A stretch of DNA of 64,000 nt, taken from contig OY253649.1 of NCBI GenBank assembly GCA_958009055.1, positions 1,451,298 to 1,515,297 of the forward strand, written 5' to 3'. Origin of the DNA: Choricystis sp. odSpoLacu1. Taxonomy: Eukaryota; Chlorophyta; Trebouxiophyceae. Position 1 is the first letter of the stretch. Every line of letters begins with the position of its first letter. The translations under genes and the position numbers were made by a program. The notes under the pieces were generated by a model. That model did not search any database, was not told where the DNA came from, and saw nothing but the letters and a program-made list of their open reading frames with translations. Of the stretch, positions 28,365-63,230 are shown in pieces.

Positions 28365-28719
28365 CTACTGTATCGCGGCCACCGCCTTGACAGCAGCGTC
28401 ATCCAGGTCGTCCGCGGGGATGATGGCCACATCGGAGGCAGCCAGAATCTGTTTGCCAGCTTCCACGTTGGTGCCCTCCAGCCGCACGATCAGCGGCACG
28501 CGCACGCCCACCTGCTTGGCCGCGTTGACGATTCCGGCCGCGATGACGTCGCACTTCATGATGCCGCCAAAGATGTTGATCAGCAAAGCTTTGACGCGGG
28601 GGTCGGCGGTCAGAATTTTAAAGGCTTCCACCACCTGCTGCTCCGACGCATTGCCGCCCACGTCCAAAAAGTTGGCGGGCGACGCGCCGTGCAGCTTGAT
28701 GATGTCCATGGTGGCCATG

Positions 28720-28752
<33 letters not shown>

Positions 28753-29867
28753 GAGCCGTCCAGGCCGATGTAGTTGAGGTCGGACTTGGCGGCCGCGACT
28801 TCGCGCGCGTCTTCTTGCGACGCGTCGCGCAGAGCGAAGATGGCTTTTTGCCGAAACGCGGCGGCGTCGTCAAAGCCCAGCTTGGCGTCAGCCGCGATGA
28901 GAACGCCATCCTCGGTTTCGGCCAGGGGGTTGACTTCAACCATGGTGCAGTCGCACTCGGCAAAAGTGCGGTACAGGGCGCGCACCTGGTCGGCAGCAGC
29001 GGCTTTGTCGCCCGTCACACCCAGCGCCGTCACAATGGACGCCGCCTGTGCATCCGTCAGGCCGAGGCGGGGGTCGACCGGGGTCTTGTGGATTTTGTCG
29101 GGGTGGGAGTGGGCCAGGTCCTCGATCGAGGTGCCGCCTGGTTGAGCGAGGGAGAGGGGTGGTGGGGTGAGCGAGCGAGGGAGGCAGCAGGCGACTGTCC
29201 TTGCACCACCCCCTCTCTCTCTTACCTTCCGAACACGCCACCACCACCGGCCCCGCGCTCTTGCGGTCCAGCAGGATGGCCAGGTACATCTCGCGCGCCA
29301 AGGCCAGCTTTTTGGCGATCAACAGCGTGTTGACAGGCTTGCCCTCGGCCCCCGTCTGCTTGGTGACCAGGGTGCCCCCCAGCATCCGTTCAGCCAGGGC
29401 GGGCGCGTCCCTGGCCTTCACAATGTGGACACCACCCTGCAGGCCGTTGGTGAAGTGGCCCAGGCCGCGGCCGCCTGCGAGGATTTGCGACTTGACGACG
29501 ACGTCGGCGTCCGGGTTGCCGTCCGTCATGGCGGCCGCCGCGTCCGCCACCTGGTCCAGGGAGAAGACGGGGACGCCGGGAGGGACGTTGACGCCGCGTT
29601 CGGCCATGACTTGGGCGCCCTGTGTGAGTGTGGGGTGGGGGGTAGGCCAGGGTCGATGGGTGCGCCATGTGCCCTTCTCCATCGCGGGCTGCTGCTGCCC
29701 CCCCGCGTGCGACCGCGCGCGCGCACACACACACACACCACGTCACACATCACAGACACCACCCACACTCTCACCTGGTACTCGTGGATGTTGAGCCAGC
29801 GGCGCTGGTCGTGCGCGACCGCGCGCGCGGCCGCGCGGCCGCGCCGGGCGAGCGTGCGCAGCAGCAT
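28365..29867 (-). CDS. Succinate-CoA ligase beta subunit, mitochondrial
   Basis: Three exons, 29867-29775, 29619-29226 and 29137-28365 (419 residues, TAG stop). Residues 1-~23 are a mitochondrial presequence ([18 protein letters not shown]), followed by LNIHEYQ, the canonical beginning of mature SucC. An ATP-grasp nucleotide-binding domain follows ([26 protein letters not shown]). The CoA-ligase half contains [33 protein letters not shown] and [16 protein letters not shown]. The GGRGLGHF glycine-rich site, NPLAE and [11 protein letters not shown] are complete. It catalyses the nucleotide-forming step of the TCA cycle with the alpha subunit; ADP versus GDP specificity is not called. A truncated copy of this gene lies at ~58.1-58.4 kb. 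Confidence 0.95.
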
Positions 29868-47899: not shown

Positions 47900-48334
47900 T
47901 TACATTTCACACGTACAGTGAAACAGGTTCAGCATGTTCCACACGCAGCCGCCACCTGCTTTGTCTTTGCACCACAGACCCGCCCTGCAACCACCCCCCG
48001 CAAACACGCCGCAGCCAGCGCTAACGCCGTTTGGGCCGGTGGCTGGGTTGACGCCCCCATATTTGCACTCAGCTTTGACCAGGCTTGTGATTACGGGCAT
48101 TTGACCGTCGCGACATTGCATTTTCCCACCCGAAAAGTGTGTTTCACACCAGCAAAATCTGCCGTCGTAGCGAACTTGGCAGACACCGTAAGCTGGGTTT
48201 CCAGAAACGCAGACGAAATCGTTGCCGTTTGGGTATAAAACAGCGCCGGCGCACGGATCGCCGGTAAGGTGCCGTGCAGAAACAGCGCCGGCAATCAAGA
48301 ACAAGGCATAGGTAACGACAAAAGTTGTACGCAT
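47900..48334 (-). CDS. Small secreted Cys-rich protein
   Basis: Single exon, 144 residues. Signal peptide MRTTFVVTYALFLIAGAVSA, then mature RHLTGDPCAGAVLYPNGNDF. About 12 Cys follow (YGVCQVRYDGRFCWCETHF, MQCRDGQMP, CGVFAGGGCRAGLWC, FHCTCEM). No family recognised. Lower GC than the housekeeping genes. Residues directly after the predicted cleavage site (SARHL) are shared with the divergent neighbour at 48674. Likely extracellular or surface protein. Confidence 0.65.
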   Translation of the reverse strand: MRTTFVVTYALFLIAGAVSARHLTGDPCAGAVLYPNGNDFVCVSGNPAYGVCQVRYDGRFCWCETHFSGGKMQCRDGQMPVITSLVKAECKYGGVNPATGPNGVSAGCGVFAGGGCRAGLWCKDKAGGGCVWNMLNLFHCTCEM

Positions 48335-48673
48335 GAAGGCAAAGAAGGGCAGAGTTTCTTGCCAAAGAAAAAAGAAATACTGGAGTGGTCGAAAGTGGCC
48401 GTCAAGTAAAACCCAAAGAAGGCGTCATGTTGGCTTCACAATTGACAGCACCACCGAAGAACAACAACAACATCTCCCAGCCTTGAACATGACTCAGTAA
48501 ACTAACAAAGTGTCGATGGCAATGGCAAAAACAGCGGCCAAATGGGTCGCTTTTTGCGACCAACTTTTTTTTTTTTTTTTTTTTTCACACACCTTTTTTT
48601 TGTTTTCCAAAAAGTATCCCACACCAAACCCGTCTCTCGTTTTCATTTGCTTGCATACTGCGCCTTTCACCTC
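48335..48673. promoter_or_regulatory. Divergent intergenic region between two secreted-protein genes
   Basis: 339 bp, markedly AT-richer than the first 42 kb, with an 18-20 T run at ~48566-48585. Shared control is inferred from geometry. Confidence 0.35.
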
Positions 48674-50185
48674 ATGCGTGCGACAAAGTCTGTTGCAGTG
48701 CTGCTGTTGTGTGCGTTAGCGATGGCGTCTGCCCGTCACCTGAATGACTTTTTAAGTGACGGCGCAACTTCCTTTCAAAACAATGTCGCCAAACCCTTTC
48801 AGGAAAAAATAGTCCAACCCGTGCAACAAAAGATAGTCCAACCCGTCCAGCAAAACGTCGTCAAACCCATTAACAATGCATATGATAAGAACATCGGGGA
48901 TCCGGCCAAAAAAATCATTAACGGTAACAGCGGCACGACATTCTCTGGAGGCACTTCAATAAAAGCACCTGACGGAAAAGCGGTTGAACAAAAGTACAAT
49001 GAAGGCACGCGATCTGGAGAAAAATCATGGAACCAAGCTAAAACAGGCGCAACGCAAACGGTTTCCGACATGGGGAATGCTGAAAAACTGAAACAACAAG
49101 CACAGTCCTCGGCGGCTGGCCAGCTCGGAGAGAGCCTTAAGAACAAAGTCAACGACGTGGGCGATCATAATCCCGCTGTCCAGAAAATGATTAACACCGC
49201 CGACCAAACATACCAAAAAGGACAAACTGAGTTTGACAAATTCAAAAACTGTCAAGGCACAGCCTCGTGTACTGGGGTCTTGATCGAAGGAGCAAAGGCG
49301 ATGAACGCTCCAGTAGCCAACGCTGTAGTCGAGAACGTGTGCTCTGACCCACTTGCATCGTTTCTGGAGGGCGGTTGGCAACAGGGTGGCGTTGGCTCAA
49401 AAATTTGGGCCGGTCAAGGTGTCGCCAATATCGTGTTAGCCGTGTTTCCTGGAACGCAGGCTGCCGCCTTGCAAATGGTGTTGGACGAAATCAGAAAACA
49501 GGGCTCCCAACTGATGAACACATTTTCGGAGATGGCGGCTAAAATTCCAGGGCAAATGTTCAACTTGGAGTCGGAAATCAGCGAAATGTTGACTGCCTTG
49601 CTGCAAGGGAAGAGTCCCCCGACTCCAAAAATGCCCGGCCTTGACCTCAAAATGGCGGTTTTGCAGTCGAAGTGCGGCACCAACACACTGAAAATTGGCA
49701 CGAATCAACCCATGGACTCTGAAGGCAACAGGGGGGACGCGAGTCCAGGTCGATGTCGCATATGGTGTGTGAACCGGGGTGTCGAGTGGCACAAACGTGG
49801 TCGTATACTGCGCAGCTACGTCAGAGTTGGTCTTGGTAAGGTGGCGGCGCGAGTTGGCGTCGCCTGTATGGGTGTGCGGGGGGAAAGAGGAGGGGTGGTC
49901 AGGCATAAAAAGGCGACGAGGGCGACACCCTTTGTCTCACCAACGACGCAAGCTCACCCGACGCCACCCAACAAGCAATTAATATATAGAGATAACGTTG
50001 CATTGTGTGTGAGGAGGCGGGCAGAGGGATCGAGGCGAACAAAAATAGATAGCACGAGTGTGCGGACACATTGGGATGCGCACCAAAAAACGCCGCCAAA
50101 TGACGAGTCGAGGCCTTTTTTTGCAGTGTTGGCCCCTTTTGCAAAAGCCCCATTTTTCGTGCATTCATTCACCGCACTGGACTGA
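48674..50185 (+). CDS. Secreted repeat-containing protein, lineage-specific
   Basis: Open frame of 503 residues from ATG 48674. Signal peptide MRATKSVAVLLLCALAMASA is followed by RHLNDFLSDGATSFQNNVAK. Near residues 40-65 there are three imperfect repeats of EKIVQPVQQKIVQPVQQNVV. The body (to ~355) is Lys/Gln/Asn/Ala-rich and helical, with few Cys, and includes a hydrophobic segment KIWAGQGVANIVLAVFPGTQ. From ~49,730 onward base and residue usage changes abruptly (Arg/His-rich, GC-rich), so the true end, or an intron, probably lies there. No family recognised; extracellular or surface location inferred from the signal peptide. Confidence 0.55.
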   Translation: MRATKSVAVLLLCALAMASARHLNDFLSDGATSFQNNVAKPFQEKIVQPVQQKIVQPVQQNVVKPINNAYDKNIGDPAKKIINGNSGTTFSGGTSIKAPDGKAVEQKYNEGTRSGEKSWNQAKTGATQTVSDMGNAEKLKQQAQSSAAGQLGESLKNKVNDVGDHNPAVQKMINTADQTYQKGQTEFDKFKNCQGTASCTGVLIEGAKAMNAPVANAVVENVCSDPLASFLEGGWQQGGVGSKIWAGQGVANIVLAVFPGTQAAALQMVLDEIRKQGSQLMNTFSEMAAKIPGQMFNLESEISEMLTALLQGKSPPTPKMPGLDLKMAVLQSKCGTNTLKIGTNQPMDSEGNRGDASPGRCRIWCVNRGVEWHKRGRILRSYVRVGLGKVAARVGVACMGVRGERGGVVRHKKATRATPFVSPTTQAHPTPPNKQLIYRDNVALCVRRRAEGSRRTKIDSTSVRTHWDAHQKTPPNDESRPFFAVLAPFAKAPFFVHSFTALD

Positions 50186-50583
50186 CTGTATTTATACGCC
50201 ATCTAAACGTTCTCGCACAATGTGTTTTCGAGCATATTCTGCCTTGGTGGATTAGCTGGGGTCGCGCGCAGCGTGCGGTTTGACGATCCAAGCAAGAAAC
50301 GTCGCGATGTGGTTGTATTGCTTGATTATGAATGTTGCAGCCTATGCTGGGGCGGATCCTGGGCGCTCTAGAAGCGTTCGACTGCCAATGTGTTGAAGAA
50401 AACACGATTTGGTCGTTTTTTTTTTTCTACTGCGCGCCCGCGTGTCACGGCATCACACAAAAACATTGGACACTATTTTGGGGACCCGCGCAGGTCCAAA
50501 CTCCCCGTTTGAGTCCTGCCTCTGCGCCACTGTCGTGTGCGCCTCTCCCGCCGAGGTCGCCGGACGTTGCCGTTGCAGTGCCC
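50186..50583. other. Intergenic or 5' region of unknown-family copy 2
   Basis: 398 bp. The reading frame of the following gene is open back to 50332, so part of this could be coding or a first exon. GACCCGCGCAG at ~50483-50493 is a possible splice acceptor. Otherwise nothing is recognised. Confidence 0.35.
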
Positions 50584-51147
50584 ATGATGGAGGATATCGA
50601 CTTGTGGTCCATCCTGGACGGCGACAGCAGTGACGCCGACGGCAGCGATGAACATGCAACGCCAGAGACACCGCACGCTGGCAACACAACGCCAACTTTG
50701 CAAGCCGCCACGTTGGTGCGTGAGGGAAGTACGTCCAAAGTAGCCACCGAACCGCCATTTCCGTCCCCCGGCTCGTCGCCAACGTCGGCTCACAGCCTTG
50801 CAGTGACGGCATCAATTCTGGCACCCGGCGTCTCGCTGGACGACTTGCCACCCGTGCTGCGCGGCGTCGCCGACCACCTGCTGCCGCCGCCATGGGGAGG
50901 TCACCACTTGGCCGTGCCCATTGTTGCGCTGGTTCCCGATTACTTGATGCATGGTGGGTGCGCAGAGGCGGCAGCGTCTGAATCAAGGCACCGCGGCCGC
51001 CGCCGGCGGACGGGCTACATGCTGGTCCGGTGTGACGACGGCATGCTTGCCGTCGTGTCGTCGGCCGACTATCACTTGATGCGCCGCCGCAAAACAAACG
51101 CGGCATTCGTGGAGCGGCGGCGGCGGGGCAGTTTCAACGGTTGTTAA
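50584..51147 (+). CDS. Unknown acidic/basic two-part protein, copy 2
   Basis: 187 residues from ATG 50584 (the frame is open upstream), TAA stop. The acidic start MEDIDLWSILDGDSSDADGS corresponds to the acidic motif of copy 1 (44930-46011). The C-terminal block VSLDDLPPVLRGVADHLLPP, then LAVPIVALVPDYL, RHRGRRRRTGYMLVRCDDG, LAVVSSADYHLMRRR aligns with copy 1 without gaps over ~40 residues and then with one short gap. The pair defines a small family with an N-terminal acidic cluster, a variable Ser/Thr/Pro linker and a conserved hydrophobic-then-basic C-terminus. No known domain. Nuclear regulator is one guess. Confidence 0.6.
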   Translation: MMEDIDLWSILDGDSSDADGSDEHATPETPHAGNTTPTLQAATLVREGSTSKVATEPPFPSPGSSPTSAHSLAVTASILAPGVSLDDLPPVLRGVADHLLPPPWGGHHLAVPIVALVPDYLMHGGCAEAAASESRHRGRRRRTGYMLVRCDDGMLAVVSSADYHLMRRRKTNAAFVERRRRGSFNGC

Positions 51148-51233
51148 ATGGGTTTCACGTGGCGGCGGCGGAACGCCGCCGCAATGGGCGCCGGCCAGCA
51201 AATAGACAGAGCATCCTGGTGACGCCCGAAATA

Positions 51234-52364
51234 TTATTCGGTTTCTATGGGCGGCAAGGCGTGTTGGGAAGGGGCGGCGATGTCGAACTGGACATTTGGA
51301 GGGAAAGGAGTGAGTTTAAAAGAGAGGGAAGATGTTGTTTTTATTGCTGCCATGCAAATGACCCTCACCGATTTTAAAAGCCCCTTACATTCCAGCCACC
51401 ATTGCTGCTTGACAGTCAAAAATCGCCCCCCGCCCCTCCAGCCTAATGGCTTGTTATGTAGCAAACCTCGTGAGCGGCAAAAACGGATGGTGTGGTGGCC
51501 AGCGGGGGTATACAGTTGAGGGTGGGTGGTGGGTCGTGGTCGGCATTTTTCAAGTTGTGAAGTCAGAACGACTCGGGCGCAGGAGAGACTGCACCCGGGG
51601 TGCGGCGGCACCCAGGTGTTGGTGACAGGTGCAGGGTGGGTAGGTGTGGTGGGGGTCGTGACCAGTGTTGCGGTTTCGTAGTCTGTGTGCGGCACACGCG
51701 CTGGGTCGGGACAATCTTTGTTCGACGAACAAAGATTACGGTAATTTTCGGATACATGTTTTTCAAGATAGCACACACGTTTGCCATAATACGGTTGCGC
51801 CCACTTGAGGCGGTGGTTGTTAGCTATCATGGATTCTAGTTGATGTATGTAGGTGTCCGGAACAGCGATTTCATAGTCGTGAAAAACCACCCACTTTGAA
51901 CGGGCGCCTTGTGCAAAGCCGACGTTGTCCAAGAATCCTTTTGGAAAGATGCCGCCGCTGGTAAAATACGGCACGAAGACATACTCGAGCCATGACCACC
52001 GAATCATTGCGTCCGAGATGAGTCGCGTTGGCCCCTTTTCAACAATCTTGACTTGCACAGAGAGATTCGTGTTGCGCAAAGCTCGGTCCCACTGATTCAT
52101 CAACAGGTCAAAGTCAAACGTGCGCTGGTAGACGGGAATGATGACTCGAAGGTCGACGAGCTGCAGTTTGGACGCCTTTGTGTACAGCTGTCCATGAAGC
52201 GGCTGAAAGAGCCATGTCGGTGCAATGGCTGATTTGAACATGTAGCAAAGCATGTCGTCAACATTTTGATGTCCGCTGTACTTGCGGGCGTTGGAGACAT
52301 GACCCCAGCAAGCCAAAATCAGACACGCCGTGACAGATAGACTTTGCACGGTGGAAGGTTGCAT
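51234..52364 (-). CDS. Glycosyltransferase, GT7/galactosyltransferase-like (C-terminus atypical)
   Basis: 376 residues from ATG 52364. Hydrophobic N-terminus (VQSLSVTACLILACWGHVSN) acts as signal or anchor. A GT-A-like core follows: LRVIIPVYQRTFDFDLLMNQ, IVEKGP, FPKGFLDNVGFAQGARSKWV and VFHDYEIAVPD. This matches the order of the GT7 N-terminal domain (P.R.R...L, E...G..FN.G.L.N.G, HD.D..P), with HDYE in place of HDVD. After NLCSSNKDCPD the sequence becomes a Thr/Pro low-complexity stretch and lacks the catalytic GWG.EDDD region. It is either truncated or continues in an unrecognised exon. First of four glycosyltransferase-like genes in a row. Confidence 0.6.
   Translation of the reverse strand: MQPSTVQSLSVTACLILACWGHVSNARKYSGHQNVDDMLCYMFKSAIAPTWLFQPLHGQLYTKASKLQLVDLRVIIPVYQRTFDFDLLMNQWDRALRNTNLSVQVKIVEKGPTRLISDAMIRWSWLEYVFVPYFTSGGIFPKGFLDNVGFAQGARSKWVVFHDYEIAVPDTYIHQLESMIANNHRLKWAQPYYGKRVCYLEKHVSENYRNLCSSNKDCPDPARVPHTDYETATLVTTPTTPTHPAPVTNTWVPPHPGCSLSCARVVLTSQLEKCRPRPTTHPQLYTPAGHHTIRFCRSRGLLHNKPLGWRGGGRFLTVKQQWWLECKGLLKSVRVICMAAIKTTSSLSFKLTPFPPNVQFDIAAPSQHALPPIETE
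51713..51737. repeat. 25-bp perfect palindrome inside the GT7-like gene
   Basis: Twelve-base arms AATCTTTGTTCG and CGAACAAAGATT flank a single A. It lies in the coding frame (NLCSSNKD), close to the point where GT7 similarity ends. Confidence 0.9.
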
Positions 52365-52466
52365 GATTCGTTTTGTTTCTTTTTGGGAGAAGAGTGAGAG
52401 CATTATGCACAAAAAATTGTTGATTGAAAACCACACACTAAAAGGCAATCACCTCGCTGCAATCAA

Positions 52467-53690
52467 ATGACAGCATTCATGCGCACGTACCTTTTACTCG
52501 CCTGTGTGTCCCTGCTAGCGACGTTGACACATGGACTGCAAACAAGGGTGGTGCCTGCGTCCTCTATCAGCCATCAATCGCCCCACAAACTGCACACAGC
52601 TCTGGCACGGCGCTGCCTGTCACCATCTGCACGGCGCGTATCGTTTGCGTTGCCAGACGCTGGAGTGGCAGGTGGGTTTGGCGACAGGCTACTGGGGATG
52701 GTGACAACCTACTATGTCGCCATGATGACGGGGTCGAAGTTTTACGTCAACTGGACGCGGCCGTACGATTTAAAAGACTATTTTGATGTCGTGGATTGCA
52801 CAGTTTTTGACCAAGCTGGTGGGGGACGAAGGCTGATCAACAACCCACCACATGCCAATGGTGCAATCAACTTTGACGCCCCCGAGGTGCGTGCTATCGA
52901 TGTGTGGACCTACTTTGAAAATGGCAACTTTTTGCGGGACCTCGACCACGACATTCGAGTGGCCACCAACAGCAGACATTGGCAGGATGTTGTGCTCACA
53001 CCCTCGCTGACTGACGCGGCATGCGGGCTGGGGGTGAACACACTGTCGCGTCATCACTTGTTCAAGCTGGCACTGCGCTCGATTTTGCTTCGGCCTAAAC
53101 ACCATGTGGCGGCAGGGGCACTCTCAGTTTTGCACAGGTTGGCGACGGCATCACCACCCTCCAGTGCACGCCCGCGAACACGATGGTACGTGGGCGTTCA
53201 AATACGGTGCGGTTCTGAAGGCCGCCTGTCGTGGGAAGACCCGGCACGGCACAGCTTGATAGACGTGCCCTGCTTTGTGCGGGAGACGTTGCGCGCGTGT
53301 GGCTTTCGAGAGCAGTGTCCCATATTTCTGACGTCAGACTCGGCCAGCGTGTCAACTCTGTTTAAAGCTAAACTGGACCGCCAAACGCGCGACGCAGCTG
53401 CGTCCGGTGTGCCCGTGCCTGCCGTTGTGATAGCCGAAGCAAAAGGCCCCATTCTGCACACAGACAGGACCAACGTGTCCACGATGGATAACAACGCTTC
53501 CGACCCATGGTTGCGCTCCATTGTGGACTGGTGGTTGCTGCAGCACGCGTCAGCGCTCGTCATATCACGCAGCGGGCTTGGAGAGACAGCGGCATGGGCA
53601 TCGACGACTGCGCGCGCTGCCCGCCGGGTGGAACTAGGCGTGCCTGGCGCGTGCAACTTCTCCGATTTTGGCACGGATTCAGTGTTTTAG
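52467..53690 (+). CDS. Fucosyltransferase-like glycosyltransferase (GT-B type)
   Basis: Single exon, 407 residues, TAG stop. The N-terminal TM or signal is TYLLLACVSLLATLTHG. GGFGDRLLGMVTTYYVAMMT is the G-x-G-(N/D)-R-L motif that opens O-fucosyltransferase/alpha-1,2- and 1,6-fucosyltransferase folds. WYVGVQIRCGSEG corresponds to their H/Q-I-R-(T/R)-G donor-site motif, and ALVISRSGLGETAAW to the distal S.SGFG..A motif. Together these support a GDP-fucose-type GT-B enzyme. The usual His before IR is Gln here. Golgi lumen location inferred. Its start is 103 bp from that of the divergent GT7-like gene. Confidence 0.65.
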   Translation: MTAFMRTYLLLACVSLLATLTHGLQTRVVPASSISHQSPHKLHTALARRCLSPSARRVSFALPDAGVAGGFGDRLLGMVTTYYVAMMTGSKFYVNWTRPYDLKDYFDVVDCTVFDQAGGGRRLINNPPHANGAINFDAPEVRAIDVWTYFENGNFLRDLDHDIRVATNSRHWQDVVLTPSLTDAACGLGVNTLSRHHLFKLALRSILLRPKHHVAAGALSVLHRLATASPPSSARPRTRWYVGVQIRCGSEGRLSWEDPARHSLIDVPCFVRETLRACGFREQCPIFLTSDSASVSTLFKAKLDRQTRDAAASGVPVPAVVIAEAKGPILHTDRTNVSTMDNNASDPWLRSIVDWWLLQHASALVISRSGLGETAAWASTTARAARRVELGVPGACNFSDFGTDSVF

Positions 53691-53760
53691 TGAAGCAGTC
53701 TATATATGCTTTGCACCTGCCCTTTTAGTTTACAAACTTATTGTAAGCTACCAATCCCCG

Positions 53761-54489
53761 TTACACTTTATAGTCAGCGTCCACTTTCTCGATGTCGCTG
53801 AACCCTTGCCTCTGTCTCCCCAAACGAGGCTGCATGACGTACCAGTTTCCAAATGGTTGCTTGTGTTTCATAAACATGTCGATCGCAAACAGGTCCTTGC
53901 TGCGTGCGTCGCACTTACCTTCGTTCAGCAACCATGCTGACGACAGGTAGGTGCGCAACAATTCGTCATAGTAGTGACTGTTGACACCGTATCCAGACGT
54001 TGTTTGTGAGTCGAAGACTTTTGCAAACGAGGCGTGGGACGTGCTTTTGGCGACAATGACGCTGGAAGCCAGGTTGACTACATCCCAGTCGGCAGACGGC
54101 AAGGTAGCAAAGAATGCGTCCACGCTGCGAATGGCAGTGTCAGGGTCTTGGTCAAACATAAAGTCGTCTTCCAGCACCAAACATGTGCGCGCCCGCATGT
54201 CTTTGCACTTCTGAAGGGCCAGTATGTGGCTCAGTGTGCAGCCGAGAGGGGCGCACTGCGTTTCGACACCGTCCAGAATGTCCAACGTGTGCACGCCCAC
54301 AGACTGCAGCTCCTTTGTAATGAGGGCGCGACGGTCCTGTCTTTTGGTGAGGCTGATGACGATGATTCTATCAAAGTGGTGGAACCCGACCATGCGGACG
54401 ACTCTGTCCTTGCGACTGTGTTGGCAGTCGACAAAGTAACAAAGAAAGAGCAAGGATGATGCTAGCACGGCTAGTTTCGTTTGTGACAT
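53761..54489 (-). CDS. GT25-family glycosyltransferase
   Basis: Single exon, 242 residues. Signal or anchor TKLAVLASSLLFLCYFVDC. The GT25 signature is complete at its N-terminal half: FDRIIVISLTKRQDRRALIT, then LDGVETQCAPLGCTLSHILA and CLVLEDDFMF (the EDD of the metal site). The family includes LPS/LOS glycosyltransferases and collagen galactosyltransferases. Here a secretory-pathway sugar transferase acting on glycoprotein or glycan is inferred. The ATG at 54489 was preferred over one 15 codons upstream because the hydrophobic segment follows it directly. Confidence 0.8.
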   Translation of the reverse strand: MSQTKLAVLASSLLFLCYFVDCQHSRKDRVVRMVGFHHFDRIIVISLTKRQDRRALITKELQSVGVHTLDILDGVETQCAPLGCTLSHILALQKCKDMRARTCLVLEDDFMFDQDPDTAIRSVDAFFATLPSADWDVVNLASSVIVAKSTSHASFAKVFDSQTTSGYGVNSHYYDELLRTYLSSAWLLNEGKCDARSKDLFAIDMFMKHKQPFGNWYVMQPRLGRQRQGFSDIEKVDADYKV

Positions 54490-54907
54490 GGTTGCTTTAC
54501 AGCAGTGAAACGTGCTGCATTGTTGGATCCCCAAAGGTCCCGATTATTCGGGATCGGAAACTCGAATGAGTTTTCGATCCTGATTATGAAAAACAAAATT
54601 ACATCCATTGGCAATATTTGACGGCCACCATTTAGCACGCAATCACGAGTAACACGTGATTGGGCTCACTCCGAATAGCTCATTCCGAACGTAGCAAGAT
54701 TCACGTCGCCAGCAATTTGCGTCAGCGGATGACGCACACACCGGCACATTTTACGGCGCCGGCACCAGTTTTTAGGTAGCGCACAACTGTCGTAATTCCG
54801 CTGTTGCACCCACGTGTAATATCTACCACATATTCAACCACAGCGTTGAGTGACTTGTTACTGTAGCTCGGTCTCTCGCTCCCAAACACATCCAAAGTTA
54901 TCTGATT
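54490..54907. other. AT-rich spacer with two small inverted repeats
   Basis: 418 bp between two minus-strand glycosyltransferase genes. It holds GATCGGAAACTC-N4-GAGTTTTCGATC (~54564-54591, one mismatch) and CAATCACG...CGTGATTG (~54642-54663). Possibly a MITE remnant or regulatory hairpins. No ORF of note. Confidence 0.5.
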
Positions 54908-56083
54908 CTATGGGCCGCTGAATACGCGCTTCAGTCCGTCCAGTGTACAGTACTCGGCCTTTCGGTGCGCTGCCTCTCCAATCAGACACGCCCAGTAGTC
55001 CAAAAATAATTTGGGCGTGTTTTCATGAAGTTGCCTTAGTCGACGCGGTTCGAGCATAGTATGTACGCCCTCTCTGACGGTTGCTTTCGACATGACGCTC
55101 CAGTTTCTAAGAAGCAAGACAGGCAATCCTTCCCACAGACGATCCATGCTGCTAGAAAGCGTCACAACCACGCGCCCCAGATAAAGTGATTCCCATGAGC
55201 GATGTGTGTCCTTGCCATTACCTCTAGGAGCGATGACCGCTGCACTCGCAAGAATTTTGCGATAGAAATGAAATGCGTCGTGTCGACAGTTTTGGTCGAT
55301 CCAGGCCATGTCAGAGTCATTAATCATCTCAGCCAGCGGAACACGCTCAGAAGGGTAGGTACCTGGTGTGAAACAAGACACCGCGATATAGGCTTCGTCA
55401 ATGGAAACGACGTCAGCAGGGCTTAATCCATGCAAGTTTCCCACCATCGCTCCCGCGAGCATTTCAGGCACCATGCCATTGCGCGGCCATCTCCTATTTT
55501 CAAGAACTATGGGAATGCACGTCATTTTTGCGTGGTTCCCGTCACAGTTTTGCGAGAAAAGAGCTCGCAATTTGTTGTGGGAGAAAAAAAGGTGCGTTGG
55601 GCTAATGCCGTCGGCGTCGCCGTTGTGTGCAACGATGACGACAGGATGGATTGCATCATCAATACATGCACTGTCAGTCAACGCCTGCAGTTTCGTGCCA
55701 TCGTTGGCAACAAAAACGACGATTGCTTGGTTTCGACGCTGTCGCCGATCGATCAAGAGGTCGCTCGTCAGTCGGTAGCATGCGTTTGCAACGTCGGCGG
55801 GTGTGTCCACAACAATATCTGAAAGGCTGCGAAACCCATCGCCCGTCACGAAAGGGAAAGAGTGGCGGCGATCATCATTGTGCTCCGTGGTCTTGTTAAA
55901 ATTGACAAACGACCTTTGGTAGCTTAGAAAAGAGGACAATTGGCCGACTTTGTCGACGACGTCCTGATATTCCAGCAAGTGTGTAGATACTGGCGATGGC
56001 TCCCAAGACCGTGCGGCTTGGACACGACATGCAGTCCACTGAAAGAGAGTCAGATATTTGCAAAATCGTAACATGCTTTGCAA
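54908..56083 (-). CDS. Exostosin/GT-B-like glycosyltransferase
   Basis: Single exon, 391 residues. After a weak N-terminal hydrophobic stretch comes an unassigned half. The C-terminal half has AVIAPRGNGKDTHRSWESLY, then LGRVVVTLSSSMDRLWEGLP and VLLLRNWSVMS. The pattern (S/A)PRGNG.D.HR.WE(A/S)LY.G..(P/V)(I/V) and LP(V/I)L.....W is shared by exostosin-related and other GT-B transferases common in algae. Substrate unknown. Lower GC and different codon use from the 1-42 kb genes. The upstream 56084-56319 is AT-rich. Confidence 0.6.
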   Translation of the reverse strand: MQSMLRFCKYLTLFQWTACRVQAARSWEPSPVSTHLLEYQDVVDKVGQLSSFLSYQRSFVNFNKTTEHNDDRRHSFPFVTGDGFRSLSDIVVDTPADVANACYRLTSDLLIDRRQRRNQAIVVFVANDGTKLQALTDSACIDDAIHPVVIVAHNGDADGISPTHLFFSHNKLRALFSQNCDGNHAKMTCIPIVLENRRWPRNGMVPEMLAGAMVGNLHGLSPADVVSIDEAYIAVSCFTPGTYPSERVPLAEMINDSDMAWIDQNCRHDAFHFYRKILASAAVIAPRGNGKDTHRSWESLYLGRVVVTLSSSMDRLWEGLPVLLLRNWSVMSKATVREGVHTMLEPRRLRQLHENTPKLFLDYWACLIGEAAHRKAEYCTLDGLKRVFSGP

Positions 56084-58082: not shown

Positions 58083-58372
58083 TCAAGTCCGCCGGCAATT
58101 GATGACCATGATTGCCATGGCCAAACCGGCGCCGTTGACCATGCAGCCGATGGAGCCGTCCAGGTCGATGTAGTTGAGGTCGCTTTGGGCGGCCGCGACT
58201 TCGTTCGCGTCTTCCTGCGACGCGTCGCGCAACGCGAATTTTTATTTTTGGCGGGAGGCGGGCATCGTCGAACCCCAGCTTGGCGTCGGCGGCGATGAGG
58301 GTGCCGTCCACCGTCTCAGCCAGCGGGTTAACGTACACCATGGTGCAGCCGGTGGTCGCTTCATTCGGCACG
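58083..58372 (-). pseudogene. Truncated duplicate of succinate-CoA ligase beta
   Basis: Clearly derived from the gene at 28365-29867. The minus strand encodes [31 protein letters not shown] and, after a frame change, the [20 protein letters not shown] segment. Over ~58105-58205 the DNA matches 28705-28805 almost base for base. It has lost both ends, carries an internal deletion/frameshift near 58240-58260 and cannot make a working subunit. Its right edge lies within a few bases of the stop codon of the tandem-repeat surface protein, marking a recombination junction. Confidence 0.9.
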
Positions 58373-61300
58373 TCAAATCAAACACGCCACTGCCGAGTAT
58401 GTCAAAATGACCAAACCCGCGTTGCCACCGCTGGAAGAAGGACCGGCTGCACCAGCTGCAGCGGGGAGGGTCGTGGCCGACGCCCAATTCAATGAACCCA
58501 AGCCGCCCGGGCCGTCGAAACCGTAACGACCGTTGTTGCCTTCAGAACCCCCAGCACCAGAGGTGGGCCAGCCGTACTTATAATTGCTGGTGCTGCCGCC
58601 GCCACCTGAAAAAATGGCAGGTTGTGTGGATAGGGAAGAAAAAACAGCGCGGCTTTTCCGCACCGGTCAGCCACTTTGGAACTTACCTGAACCAAACCCG
58701 CCCCCACCACCACCGGCGAAACCATATGCGCCAGGGTTGCCACCGGTCCCTGCGTAGCCGCCTTGACCGGCAAAAGAGGAGTCACCGTAGAAATCGTAGG
58801 CTCCTCTACCCCCACCTAGGTAATAACCGCCAGTTGCAGGAGAAAAAAATTTAGAGTAGTAGGGAGACATTGTACCAGCAGCCCCGCCAGAATTTCCGGT
58901 TCCGCCGCGGCCGCCGACTGGGCTAGGTAGGGTTTGGCCTTTGCCTTCAGCACCTCCACCGCCACCTCCGCCGAACAATCCGGCGCCACCGCCGCCGCCA
59001 CTCTGATCGTTTCGATAGGCAGGCTTGGGGGTTTGACCATAAGGAGCGCCGCCGGCTCCGCCGCCGCCACCCACGACTACATAAAGATCGTCGCCTGGGT
59101 TGAGCGTAACCGTCGCACTCACAGGCGACGAGGAGTATCCCAAAAATGGTAAATTAAAAACGGATCTGCCGCCTGCCCCACCAGAGGACGCTGTGACGGT
59201 ATTGCCATTGATTTTGACGCCGCTGGAACCACCGCCGCCGCCGTATCCCCCGCCACCGGTGCTGCTACCAGCGCCCCCGCCGCCACCGACGGCGTCGACC
59301 TTCAGTTGCACGGACTCCGAGAACGGCGACTTGGAGTTCAGTTGGGTGGTCACGACCTTGGTGCACTGCACGAGCGGAGGGTCGACGACCGTCGCAACTT
59401 GCACAGGGGCCCCGCTCGACCCGCCGAACGACGTCACCACAGCCGTCAGGTTGCCCGAGCTCGTCGGGGCAGTCGAAAAAGTCACCGTCAGCTGGGTCGA
59501 CGTCGCCGACGTCACAGTGCCGGCGGCGCCCAGGTTGAGCGTCACCGAGTCGCCGGCAGCCGCCGGGTCGAAGCCGGTGCCGTTGATCACCAGCGCGGGT
59601 GCGTTGCGCGCCAGGTTGGCCACGCTCGGCGTGACGGCCGGAGGGTCGACGACCGTCGCAACTTGCACAGGGGCCCCGCTCGACCCGCCGAACGACGTCA
59701 CCACAGCCGTCAGGTTGCCCGAGCTCGTCGGGGCAGTCGAAAAAGTCACCGTCAGCTGGGTCGACGTCGCCGACGTCACAGTGCCGGCGGCGCCCAGGTT
59801 GAGCGTCACCGAGTCGCCGGCAGCCGCCGGGTCGAAGCCGGTGCCGTTGATCACCAGCGCGGGTGCGTTGCGCGCCAGGTTGGCCACGCTCGGCGTGACG
59901 GCCGGAGGGTCGACGACCGTCGCAACTTGCACAGGGGCCCCGCTCGACCCGCCGAACGACGTCACCACAGCCGTCAGGTTGCCCGAGCTCGTCGGGGCAG
60001 TCGAAAAAGTCACCGTCAGCTGGGTCGACGTCGCCGACGTCACAGTGCCGGCGGCGCCCAGGTTGAGCGTCACCGAGTCGCCGGCAGCCGCCGGGTCGAA
60101 GCCGGTGCCGTTGATCACCAGCGCGGGTGCGTTGCGCGCCAGGTTGGCCACGCTCGGCGTGACGGCCGGAGGGTCGACGACCGTCGCAACTTGCACAGGG
60201 GCCCCGCTCGACCCGCCGAACGACGTCACCACAGCCGTCAGGTTGCCCGAGCTCGTCGGGGCAGTCGAAAAAGTCACCGTCAGCTGGGTCGACGTCGCCG
60301 ACGTCACAGTGCCGGCGGCGCCCAGGTTGAGCGTCACCGAGTCGCCGGCAGCCGCCGGGTCGAAGCCGGTGCCGTTGATCACCAGCGCGGGTGCGTTGCG
60401 CGCCAGGTTGGCCACGCTCGGCGTGACGGCCGGAGGGTCGACGACCGTCGCAACTTGCACAGGGGCCCCGCTCGACCCGCCGAACGACGTCACCACAGCC
60501 GTCAGGTTGCCCGAGCTCGTCGGGGCAGTCGAAAAAGTCACCGTCAGCTGGGTCGACGTCGCCGACGTCACAGTGCCGGCGGCGCCCAGGTTGAGCGTCA
60601 CCGAGTCGCCGGCAGCCGCCGGGTCGAAGCCGGTGCCGTTGATCACCAGCGCGGGTGCGTTGCGCGCCAGGTTGGCCACGCTCGGCGTGACGGCCGGAGG
60701 GTCGACGACCGTCGCAACTTGCACAGGGGCCCCGCTCGACCCGCCGAACGACGTCACCACAGCCGTCAGGTTGCCCGAGCTCGTCGGGGCAGTCGAAAAA
60801 GTCACCGTCAGCTGGGTCGACGTCGCCGACGTCACAGTGCCGGCGGCGCCCAGGTTGAGCGTCACCGAGTCGCCGGCAGCCGCCGGGTCGAAGCCGGTGC
60901 CGTTGATCACCAGCGCGGGTGCGTTGCGCGCCAGGTTGGCCACGCTCGGCGTGACGGCCGGAGGGTCGACGACCGTCGCAACTTGCACAGGGGCCCCGCT
61001 CGACCCGCCGAACGACGTCACCACAGCCGTCAGGTTGCCCGAGCTCGTCGGGGCAGTCGAAAAAGTCACCGTCAGCTGGGTCGACGTCGCCGACGTCACA
61101 GTGCCGGCGGCGCCCAGGTTGAGCGTCACCGAGTCGCCGGCAGCCGCCGGGTCGAAGCCGGTGCCGTTGATCACCAGCGCGGGTGCGTTGCGCGCCAGGT
61201 TGGCCACGCTCGGCGTGACGGCCGGAGGGTCGACGACCGTCGCAACTTGCACAGGGGCCCCGCTCGACCCGCCGAACGACGTCACCACAGCCGTCAGGTT

Positions 61301-63230
61301 GCCCGAGCTCGTCGGGGCAGTCGAAAAAGTCACCGTCAGCTGGGTCGACGTCGCCGACGTCACAGTGCCGGCGGCGCCCAGGTTGAGCGTCACCGAGTCG
61401 CCGGCAGCCGCCGGGTCGAAGCCGGTGCCGTTGATCACCAGCGCGGGTGCGTTGCGCGCCAGGTTGGCCACGCTCGGCGTGACGGCCGGAGGGTCGACGA
61501 CCGTCGCAACTTGCACAGGGGCCCCGCTCGACCCGCCGAACGACGTCACCACAGCCGTCAGGTTGCCCGAGCTCGTCGGGGCAGTCGAAAAAGTCACCGT
61601 CAGCTGGGTCGACGTCGCCGACGTCACAGTGCCGGCGGCGCCCAGGTTGAGCGTCACCGAGTCGCCGGCAGCCGCCGGGTCGAAGCCGGTGCCGTTGATC
61701 ACCAGCGCGGGTGCGTTGCGCGCCAGGTTGGCCACGCTCGGCGTGACGGCCGGAGGGTCGACGACCGTCGCAACTTGCACAGGGGCCCCGCTCGACCCGC
61801 CGAACGACGTCACCACAGCCGTCAGGTTGCCCGAGCTCGTCGGGGCAGTCGAAAAAGTCACCGTCAGCTGGGTCGACGTCGCCGACGTCACAGTGCCGGC
61901 GGCGCCCAGGTTGAGCGTCACCGAGTCGCCGGCAGCCGCCGGGTCGAAGCCGGTGCCGTTGATCACCAGCGCGGGTGCGTTGCGCGCCAGGTTGGCCACG
62001 CTCGGCGTGACGGCCGGAGGGTCGACGACCGTCGCAACTTGCACAGGGGCCCCGCTCGACCCGCCGAACGACGTCACCACAGCCGTCAGGTTGCCCGAGC
62101 TCGTCGGGGCAGTCGAAAAAGTCACCGTCAGCTGGGTCGACGTCGCCGACGTCACAGTGCCGGCGGCGCCCAGGTTGAGCGTCACCGAGTCGCCGGCAGC
62201 CGCCGGGTCGAAGCCGGTGCCGTTGATCACCAGCGCGGGTGCGTTGCGCGCCAGGTTGGCCACGCTCGGCGTGACGGTTAGTGGCAACACTGTCGGCCAC
62301 GGCGTCGGCTTCGGCAATCGCAATTTTGCTGGGGCGACGGCGATTTTAAGGGTCGGCGCATCGATGGCAAGGGAGGCTTGGCCGTCGCTCGTGGTCGTCT
62401 TCTTGCAACCCGCCGTCACGGACGACACCCAACTCAGCGGCGGAGTGACGAGCACGCCGACGCCGCCCTGCGTGCCGCAGGTAACGTAGTTGGTGGGGAC
62501 GAGGGACGAGTTGGACTTGACGACAAATGAGAGCTCGCCGACCAGCCCCGTCGCCACGTCCACCGCCACGCGCAGCGAGGCGATGTAACCGTCGTCCGCC
62601 ACGACGAAAGAACGCGGCGCGCCCGCAGTCGAGCACAGAGGAGCGTCGGCGCCCAGCTGAAGGCCGACCACGTCGCCCGTCGCGTCGTCCACGAAGCACG
62701 TGACGGCGCCCGTGAAACGGGGCGCCGTCGCGTTTGGGGCGGCTGTGAACGCGCTCAGCTTGAGTGCGAATTCGGCAATCAGCGCGCTCTCGGTGGCGTT
62801 CAGGAGGGTCGCGGGGGAGTCGGCGGCCGCGGGGGAGGCAGCGACCAGCCTGGCGACTGAAGAAACGGAAGAGGGATGTCAAGAAGGTGTGGGTGGTGAC
62901 ACTTGCGCATAAACGTCGCCCGCCCGCGCGCGCGCGCGCAGTTTTGGGGGGGGGGGGGGGGGGCACGAGCTGGCCTGGGCGCTACTGGGGCGCCCAGGCC
63001 GTGAAGCTGCGCTACTGGGGCAATCGTGAAGCTGCCTTCACGATTGCGCCGTGGAAGCTGCAGCCTCCGTCCGCGTGGTTGCCCTGGTGTGTCCGGAACG
63101 TGTGCAATAAATACCCTCCACGTACCCCCGACTCACCGCAAGCCATCCACAGCGTCGACAGAAGCATGGGCGCGCGTAGGAAAGCAGACAAGCAACAGGG
63201 CGCCCCTGAGAAAGCTGGAAGGGTGGGCAT
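58373..63230 (-). CDS. Giant secreted IPT/TIG-like tandem-repeat protein with Gly-rich tail
   Basis: Three exons, 63230-63137, 62856-58687 and 58605-58373 (1498 residues, all junctions in frame). Hydrophobic leader (APMLLSTLWMACG, then VARLVAASPAAA) acts as a signal peptide. A ~180-residue N-terminal domain with several Cys follows. Then come 11 copies of an 88-residue unit (VTPSVANLARNAPALVINGT, GFDPAAAGDSVTLNLGAAGT, LTVTFSTAPTSSGNLTAVVT, VATVVDPPA). Each unit looks like an IPT/TIG immunoglobulin-type beta sandwich and has NGT and NLT glycosylation sequons. The last ~300 residues are a Gly-rich domain (GGGGGAGG, YVVVGGGGGAGGAPYGQ) ending in a hydrophobic stretch AGLVILTYSAVACLI. A surface adhesin or wall protein is inferred. 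The gene ends ~300 bp before telomere repeats. Confidence 0.8.
59377..62280. repeat. 11 x 264-bp tandem repeat (coding)
   Basis: A GAGGGTCGAC landmark recurs every 264 bp (59377, 59641, 59905, 60169, 60433, 60697, 60961, 61225, 61489, 61753, 62017). By reading, the copies are identical or nearly so at nucleotide level; the outer edges alone differ. 264 is a multiple of three, so copy-number change keeps the frame. Confidence 0.97.
62946..62963. repeat. Poly-G run in intron 1 of the tandem-repeat gene
   Basis: 18 consecutive G (poly-C on the sense strand of the gene), prone to slippage and assembly error. Confidence 0.9.
62972..63047. repeat. Two adjacent hairpins in intron 1
   Basis: Hairpin 1: GGCCTGGGCG (62972-62981) with CGCCCAGGCC (62991-63000). 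Hairpin 2: GCAATCGTGAAG (63020-63031) with CTTCACGATTGC (63036-63047). The linker GCTACTGGGG occurs in both units, so they look like a degenerate duplication. Confidence 0.85.

Follow-up and report, generated by a model that had tools for sequence, protein, structure and literature searches.

A telomere-side algal gene with a predicted lectin-type head and eleven near-identical TIG repeats: a candidate length-variable surface adhesin

Variable adhesins encoded beside telomeres are best known in yeasts and parasites. Could a green alga carry a gene of comparable layout? The question is raised by one contig end of Choricystis sp. odSpoLacu1. The window analysed here is a stretch of 64,000 nucleotides (GenBank assembly GCA_958009055.1, contig OY253649.1, positions 1,451,298 to 1,515,297), and its right end is the end of the contig, hereafter C1 (1,515,297 bases, with TTAGGG repeats at both ends; the genome is 14.6 Mb in 19 contigs). 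Next to this end, on the minus strand, lies a gene predicted to encode a lectin-type head, eleven IPT/TIG domains and a Gly-rich domain. In the reading that we favour as the likely one, its product is a secreted adhesin of the surface or matrix, with a lectin head on an immunoglobulin (Ig)-type stalk, and in-frame exchange of units alters the length of the protein.

Tandem Repeats Finder reports the array at 59375-62277, with a period of 264, 11.0 copies and 100% matches. Compared copy by copy, 10 of the 11 units are identical and the remaining unit differs at 1 of 264 bases, which bears out the eleven near-identical in-frame 264-bp units of a preliminary description of this DNA. Two units taken together score 22.7 bits against PF01833 in Pfam, above the curated cut-off of 20.9; one unit alone scores 17.3 bits, under that cut-off. 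No TIG line was returned by a Pfam scan of a 685-residue construct, the spliced window protein minus 9 of its 11 TIG units, which also served as the query for both public protein searches. The predicted structure of a unit, which had been set as a check, is an E-set Ig-like fold resembling the IPT domains of MET and plexin, in agreement with the IPT/TIG identity first proposed. Each unit carries two N-glycosylation sequons.

The array lies within a gene of three exons, whose splicing is predicted from the sequence. The features of the locus are as follows, in window coordinates; C14 is a second contig, with ten related genes described below.

63137..63167, minus strand: predicted exon 1, with an ATG, a GT donor and a hydrophobic, signal-peptide-like start (MLLSTLWMAC...)
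62857..63136, minus strand: predicted intron 1, GT-AG, 280 nt, where a splice consensus joins the frames
58687..62856, minus strand: exon 2, with the lectin-type head, the TIG array and the first stretch of the Gly-rich domain
62324..62752, minus strand: N-terminal head domain with four invariant Cys, predicted to adopt a beta-prism I (jacalin-type) fold
59375..62278, minus strand: IPT/TIG array of eleven 264-bp units, each encoding 88 aa
58687..59374, minus strand: exon 2 portion of the Gly-rich domain, with 48% identity to C14 copy 2 and 47% to P0049
58606..58686, minus strand: intron 2, GT-AG, 81 nt, at a position common to C14 copy 2
58373..58605, minus strand: exon 3, with the rest of the Gly-rich domain and the stop codon
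63544..64000, plus strand: telomere at the end of C1, TTAGGG with TAGGGG and TTAGGGG variants

The gene runs from 63167, or from 63230 if an in-frame upstream ATG is used, to a stop codon whose last base is 58373; 58373 and 63230 are the end points given in the preliminary description. The predicted protein is 1,477 residues long, and about 1,498 from the upstream ATG, matching the product of roughly 1,500 residues first estimated. A distance of about 300 bp from the telomere had also been claimed, and the gap measures 313-376 bp, depending on the ATG chosen, at the start side of the gene. The telomere itself contains 46 TTAGGG, 22 TAGGGG and 5 TTAGGGG units. For comparison, Pelagomonas is described as having TTAGGG telomeres, 63% GC and 6 nuclear contigs (PMC9481584), and Chloropicon primus as having the telomere unit CCTAAAAA and a mean GC of 57.5% (PMC6731263). 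As a control on the array, four of six frames run across it without a stop, because 264 is a multiple of 3. An open frame is thus uninformative alone, and the coding case was judged by homology, by G+C content at third codon positions (GC3; 0.84-0.88 in the N-exon and the repeat unit) and by the intron common to the paralogue; the GC3 of the Gly-rich part, just 0.56, counts against it. That Gly-rich part is present as first described, but as a domain related to those of C14 copy 2 and P0049 rather than as a free tail; it has no PDB match at E <= 1 and no Pfam line.

The head is predicted to adopt a beta-prism I fold, and its nearest folds include the lectins ZG16 and griffithsin. This likeness to jacalin-related lectins (ZG16, banana lectin and griffithsin) is one of fold, with 10-19% identity, and the head differs from them in being fused to a TIG stalk. 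A jacalin assignment by sequence was rejected: a Pfam scan at E <= 1 gave no jacalin line in any of 13 head-domain members. At the same threshold the 685-residue construct gave no PA14 or GLEYA line. The N-terminal domain had been called unique, a claim that has to be withdrawn, since it belongs to a family found at other genome loci and in public proteins. Searching the genome at E <= 0.01 returned 13 stretches, the window's own included, with the 12 others at 11 loci; among 3,336 candidate public proteins, 8 match the head at E <= 0.001. Elsewhere the head is joined, by match, to BNR/sortilin-type repeats, LVIVD, Stig1 or Gly-rich modules (the sortilin match of the C8:749k gene scores 28.5 vs a cut-off of 33).

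Paralogues were looked for at other chromosome ends and are present there: among the ends read, members lie <=10 kb from the left ends of C1 and C12 and the right end of C14, as well as from C1 right. The C1-left gene (L009:642-3488) has a head domain and two TIG units; its FN3-like and LVIVD-like repeats were recognized by eye and are unmatched in Pfam at E <= 0.01. The C12-left gene (L027:3-1925) combines a head with an fn3 domain just under the cut-off (24.3 vs 25), on the strand toward the telomere, and its open frame runs on into the telomeric repeats. The ten C14 genes are absent from the E <= 0.01 list. Their open frames contain just the later part of the head, and a head profile built without C14-type sequence matches all ten, at 50.8-53.9 bits.

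These C14 genes provide the evidence on repeat number. The telomere that closes C14 (550,209 bases) spans 549753-550209. The open frames of the ten tandem genes extend from 463942 to 548305, and the genes lie within the last 86 kb of the contig, up to 2 kb from its end. Their N-exons differ at 0-1 of 370 bases, and their TIG counts, for copies 1 to 10, are 11, 11, 15, 9, 8, 12, 8, 17, 10 and 7. The variable repeat number anticipated earlier is therefore observed, as a range of 7-17 units among ten near-identical paralogues. With unit number differing among close relatives situated near a second chromosome end, stalk length appears able to change. For instance, copies 9 and 10, each 100% identical to P0003 over a 306-residue C-terminal part, have the unit orders AdNFdyFdqD and AdNFdqD, a difference that would be explained simply by one duplication or deletion of a three-unit block. 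Two further proteins from a relative, P0007 and P0013, have 8 and 5 units and are otherwise nearly identical over their common stretch; they may be alleles, paralogues or assembly variants. The C14 unit types vary mainly at residues 2, 11, 12, 14, 65 and 78-80. In a substitution count over 93 of 95 units of 261 bp (two divergent units were dropped), there are 36 distinct non-synonymous and 23 synonymous changes and no stop; the ratio of 1.57, vs 2.43 expected, is mildly below random and points to mild constraint. Three proteins, P0003, P0015 and P0017, correspond to C14 copies 10, 5 and 7 and are identical to them from the second residue (all three compared). They come from a contig of 658,541 bases, as against 550,209 for C14, a difference in length that points to another assembly, made from the same strain or from one very close to it. 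Between the ten genes, short extra TIG-coding stretches occur in eight or nine places (L010-L019, C14:455001-550209); eight belong to a single type, every one of them with a TAG stop, and these stretches may represent remnants or the exons of a further gene.

Where else do such proteins occur? The protein search with the 685-residue query found 170 relatives among 7,989 scored candidates, which were up to about 1,199 residues long, so the window protein itself could not appear. Within the best 120 of these relatives, 114 contain a TIG-like unit (by regular expression) and 12 match the head profile. Scanning bacterial and archaeal genomes gave 30 loci, assigned by title to Planctomycetota (17), Verrucomicrobiota (10) and Acidobacteriota (3). 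The TIG-repeat proteins of these phyla resemble the window protein in their units, which are 47-72% identical, and differ in having no detectable head: the head profile gave no hit at E <= 0.01 in any of the 30 loci (best E 0.35). In a tree built from 71 units, 37 of the 68 inner branches were not resolved, and bacterial units were not cleanly set apart from algal ones. With such poor resolution, transfer of TIG units into or out of bacteria is an unproven possibility. Five loci on contigs of a viral collection (L062-L066) code for TIG units that share 61-65% identity with those of the query; another search pattern on viral contigs gave 19 stretches and no relative. Four metagenome proteins (P0032, P0033, P0034 and P0038) combine the same TIG units with RCC1-type repeats, according to Pfam labels, which gives this stalk one more partner. 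With regard to the host, light-harvesting protein matches cover 26 stretches of the genome. The one examined matches chlorophyll a/b light-harvesting complex (LHC) chains in solved structures (9vfj LHCI-2 ranks first, followed by LHCII chains among others), and we read it as green-type, hence from a green alga or an alga with a green-derived plastid, consistent with the algal host first supposed.

A secreted adhesin of this kind would work as follows. The putative signal peptide would lead to export, placing a probably glycosylated protein at the cell surface or in the extracellular matrix. At its N-terminus the jacalin-like beta-prism head may bind sugars, the eleven IPT/TIG domains would form a stalk, and the Gly-rich domain would close the chain. 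Unequal exchange or slippage between units could add or remove whole domains with the frame intact, because a unit is exactly 88 codons; C14 paralogues 9 and 10 may display the outcome of such an exchange. The telomere neighbourhood probably permits frequent exchange, and perhaps silencing. Repeat number would then set the distance of the head from the cell.

The closest analogy is with the yeast Flo, Epa and Als proteins, described as having an N-terminal binding head, an in-frame stalk of variable-number repeats and telomeric genes (PMC8621652). The window gene likewise joins a head to an in-frame stalk of a variable family at the side of a telomere. However, the yeast head is PA14/GLEYA where a jacalin-type fold is predicted here, and the Ig-fold TIG stalk, the lack of a convincing glycosylphosphatidylinositol (GPI) signal and the algal lineage are further differences. 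The FLO/EPA-type arrangement suggested at the outset holds for the in-frame repeats and the subtelomeric position, but not for the head, and no convincing anchor signal was found by hydropathy; the gene would function like the Flo/Epa layout by analogy and is not a member. Among algae, work on a self-flocculating Scenedesmus points to GPI-anchored fasciclin proteins, and the same source cites a jacalin-like protein of Chlorococcum that was assumed to act in biofilm formation (PMC7590803). Among the papers listed by literature searches, no title or abstract opening named a telomere-side variable adhesin of this kind in algae, the Scenedesmus work being the nearest.

Several observations weigh against the adhesin reading. 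The secreted character claimed earlier keeps a plausible hydrophobic, signal-peptide-like start, but the signal is weak, with an Arg at residue 13. No transmembrane stretch and, by hydropathy only, no convincing GPI signal were found in the predicted protein; the C-terminal end LVILTYSAVACLI is hydrophobic (Kyte-Doolittle value 2.47 over 13 residues, again from hydropathy only), and its first half aligns with the end of the Gly-rich domain of C14 copy 2. The head is without a Pfam jacalin match, and a common fold does not show function. Most head-domain loci from the E <= 0.01 search are internal, >10 kb from contig ends. The unit-number variation was observed between paralogues, not between strains, and the public 658,541-base contig may share reads with the present assembly and so not be independent.

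Other explanations must be considered in this light. With no anchor found, and with secreted lectins such as ZG16 and griffithsin among the nearest folds, the protein could be a soluble defence or agglutinating lectin, released to clump bacteria, viruses or grazers, its TIG units mere spacers. The joining of the head to varied C-terminal modules (BNR/sortilin-type, LVIVD, Stig1, Gly-rich and the near-cut-off fn3) would suit such a role. Long Ig stalks, however, usually hold a head off a surface, a general point that is not decisive, and we regard a soluble lectin as unlikely. An allorecognition or mating adhesin, in which partners match through variable Ig stalks, is suggested by Dictyostelium TgrB1/TgrC1, described in a preprint as TIG-domain self-recognition adhesins of a fast-evolving family (PMC12324515). 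Extracellular TIG/IPT domains are common to both, and the differences among C14 unit types at mainly a few residues would fit. Yet Tgr proteins span the membrane, no membrane-spanning segment was detected in the window protein, and the excerpted preprint mentions no lectin-type head for them; moreover, the window units are practically identical and so carry no sequence code, which leaves this role quite improbable.

Finally, the product could be a structural protein of the wall or matrix, with a repeat number that drifts, functionless, like that of a minisatellite, the telomere doing no more than raise the rate. Near-perfect unit identity requires just recent amplification, and the C14 ratio lies only a little below random. 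Nevertheless, the array frame is open in all ten C14 copies although their unit counts vary, and conservation of the TIG and head sequences extends to proteins from elsewhere; we see only a slim chance that drift accounts for the array. The lectin-headed, Ig-stalked adhesin is the reading that we retain.

Two neighbouring features of the window may be mentioned. Positions 58100-58351, beside the adhesin gene, share 82% DNA identity with positions 28700-28953, which, to judge by a motif, look like part of a succinyl-CoA ligase beta gene; the former looks like a decayed partial copy of the latter. Positions 48001-56000 have a GC content of 50-57%, vs 66% for the whole window, and contain several long open reading frames.

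More broadly, the locus may belong to a system of algal chromosome-end surface variation, in which a lectin-type head is combined with exchangeable modules and with Ig stalks that acquire new lengths through unequal exchange near telomeres. We put this wider idea forward tentatively and consider it doubtful. If true, the FLO/EPA layout would have been invented here independently, with another head and stalk, and clones could differ in stickiness or in their recognition by viruses, bacteria and grazers. Natural length variants in an algal set would make the roles of repeat number and chromosome end in clumping, infection and grazing testable.
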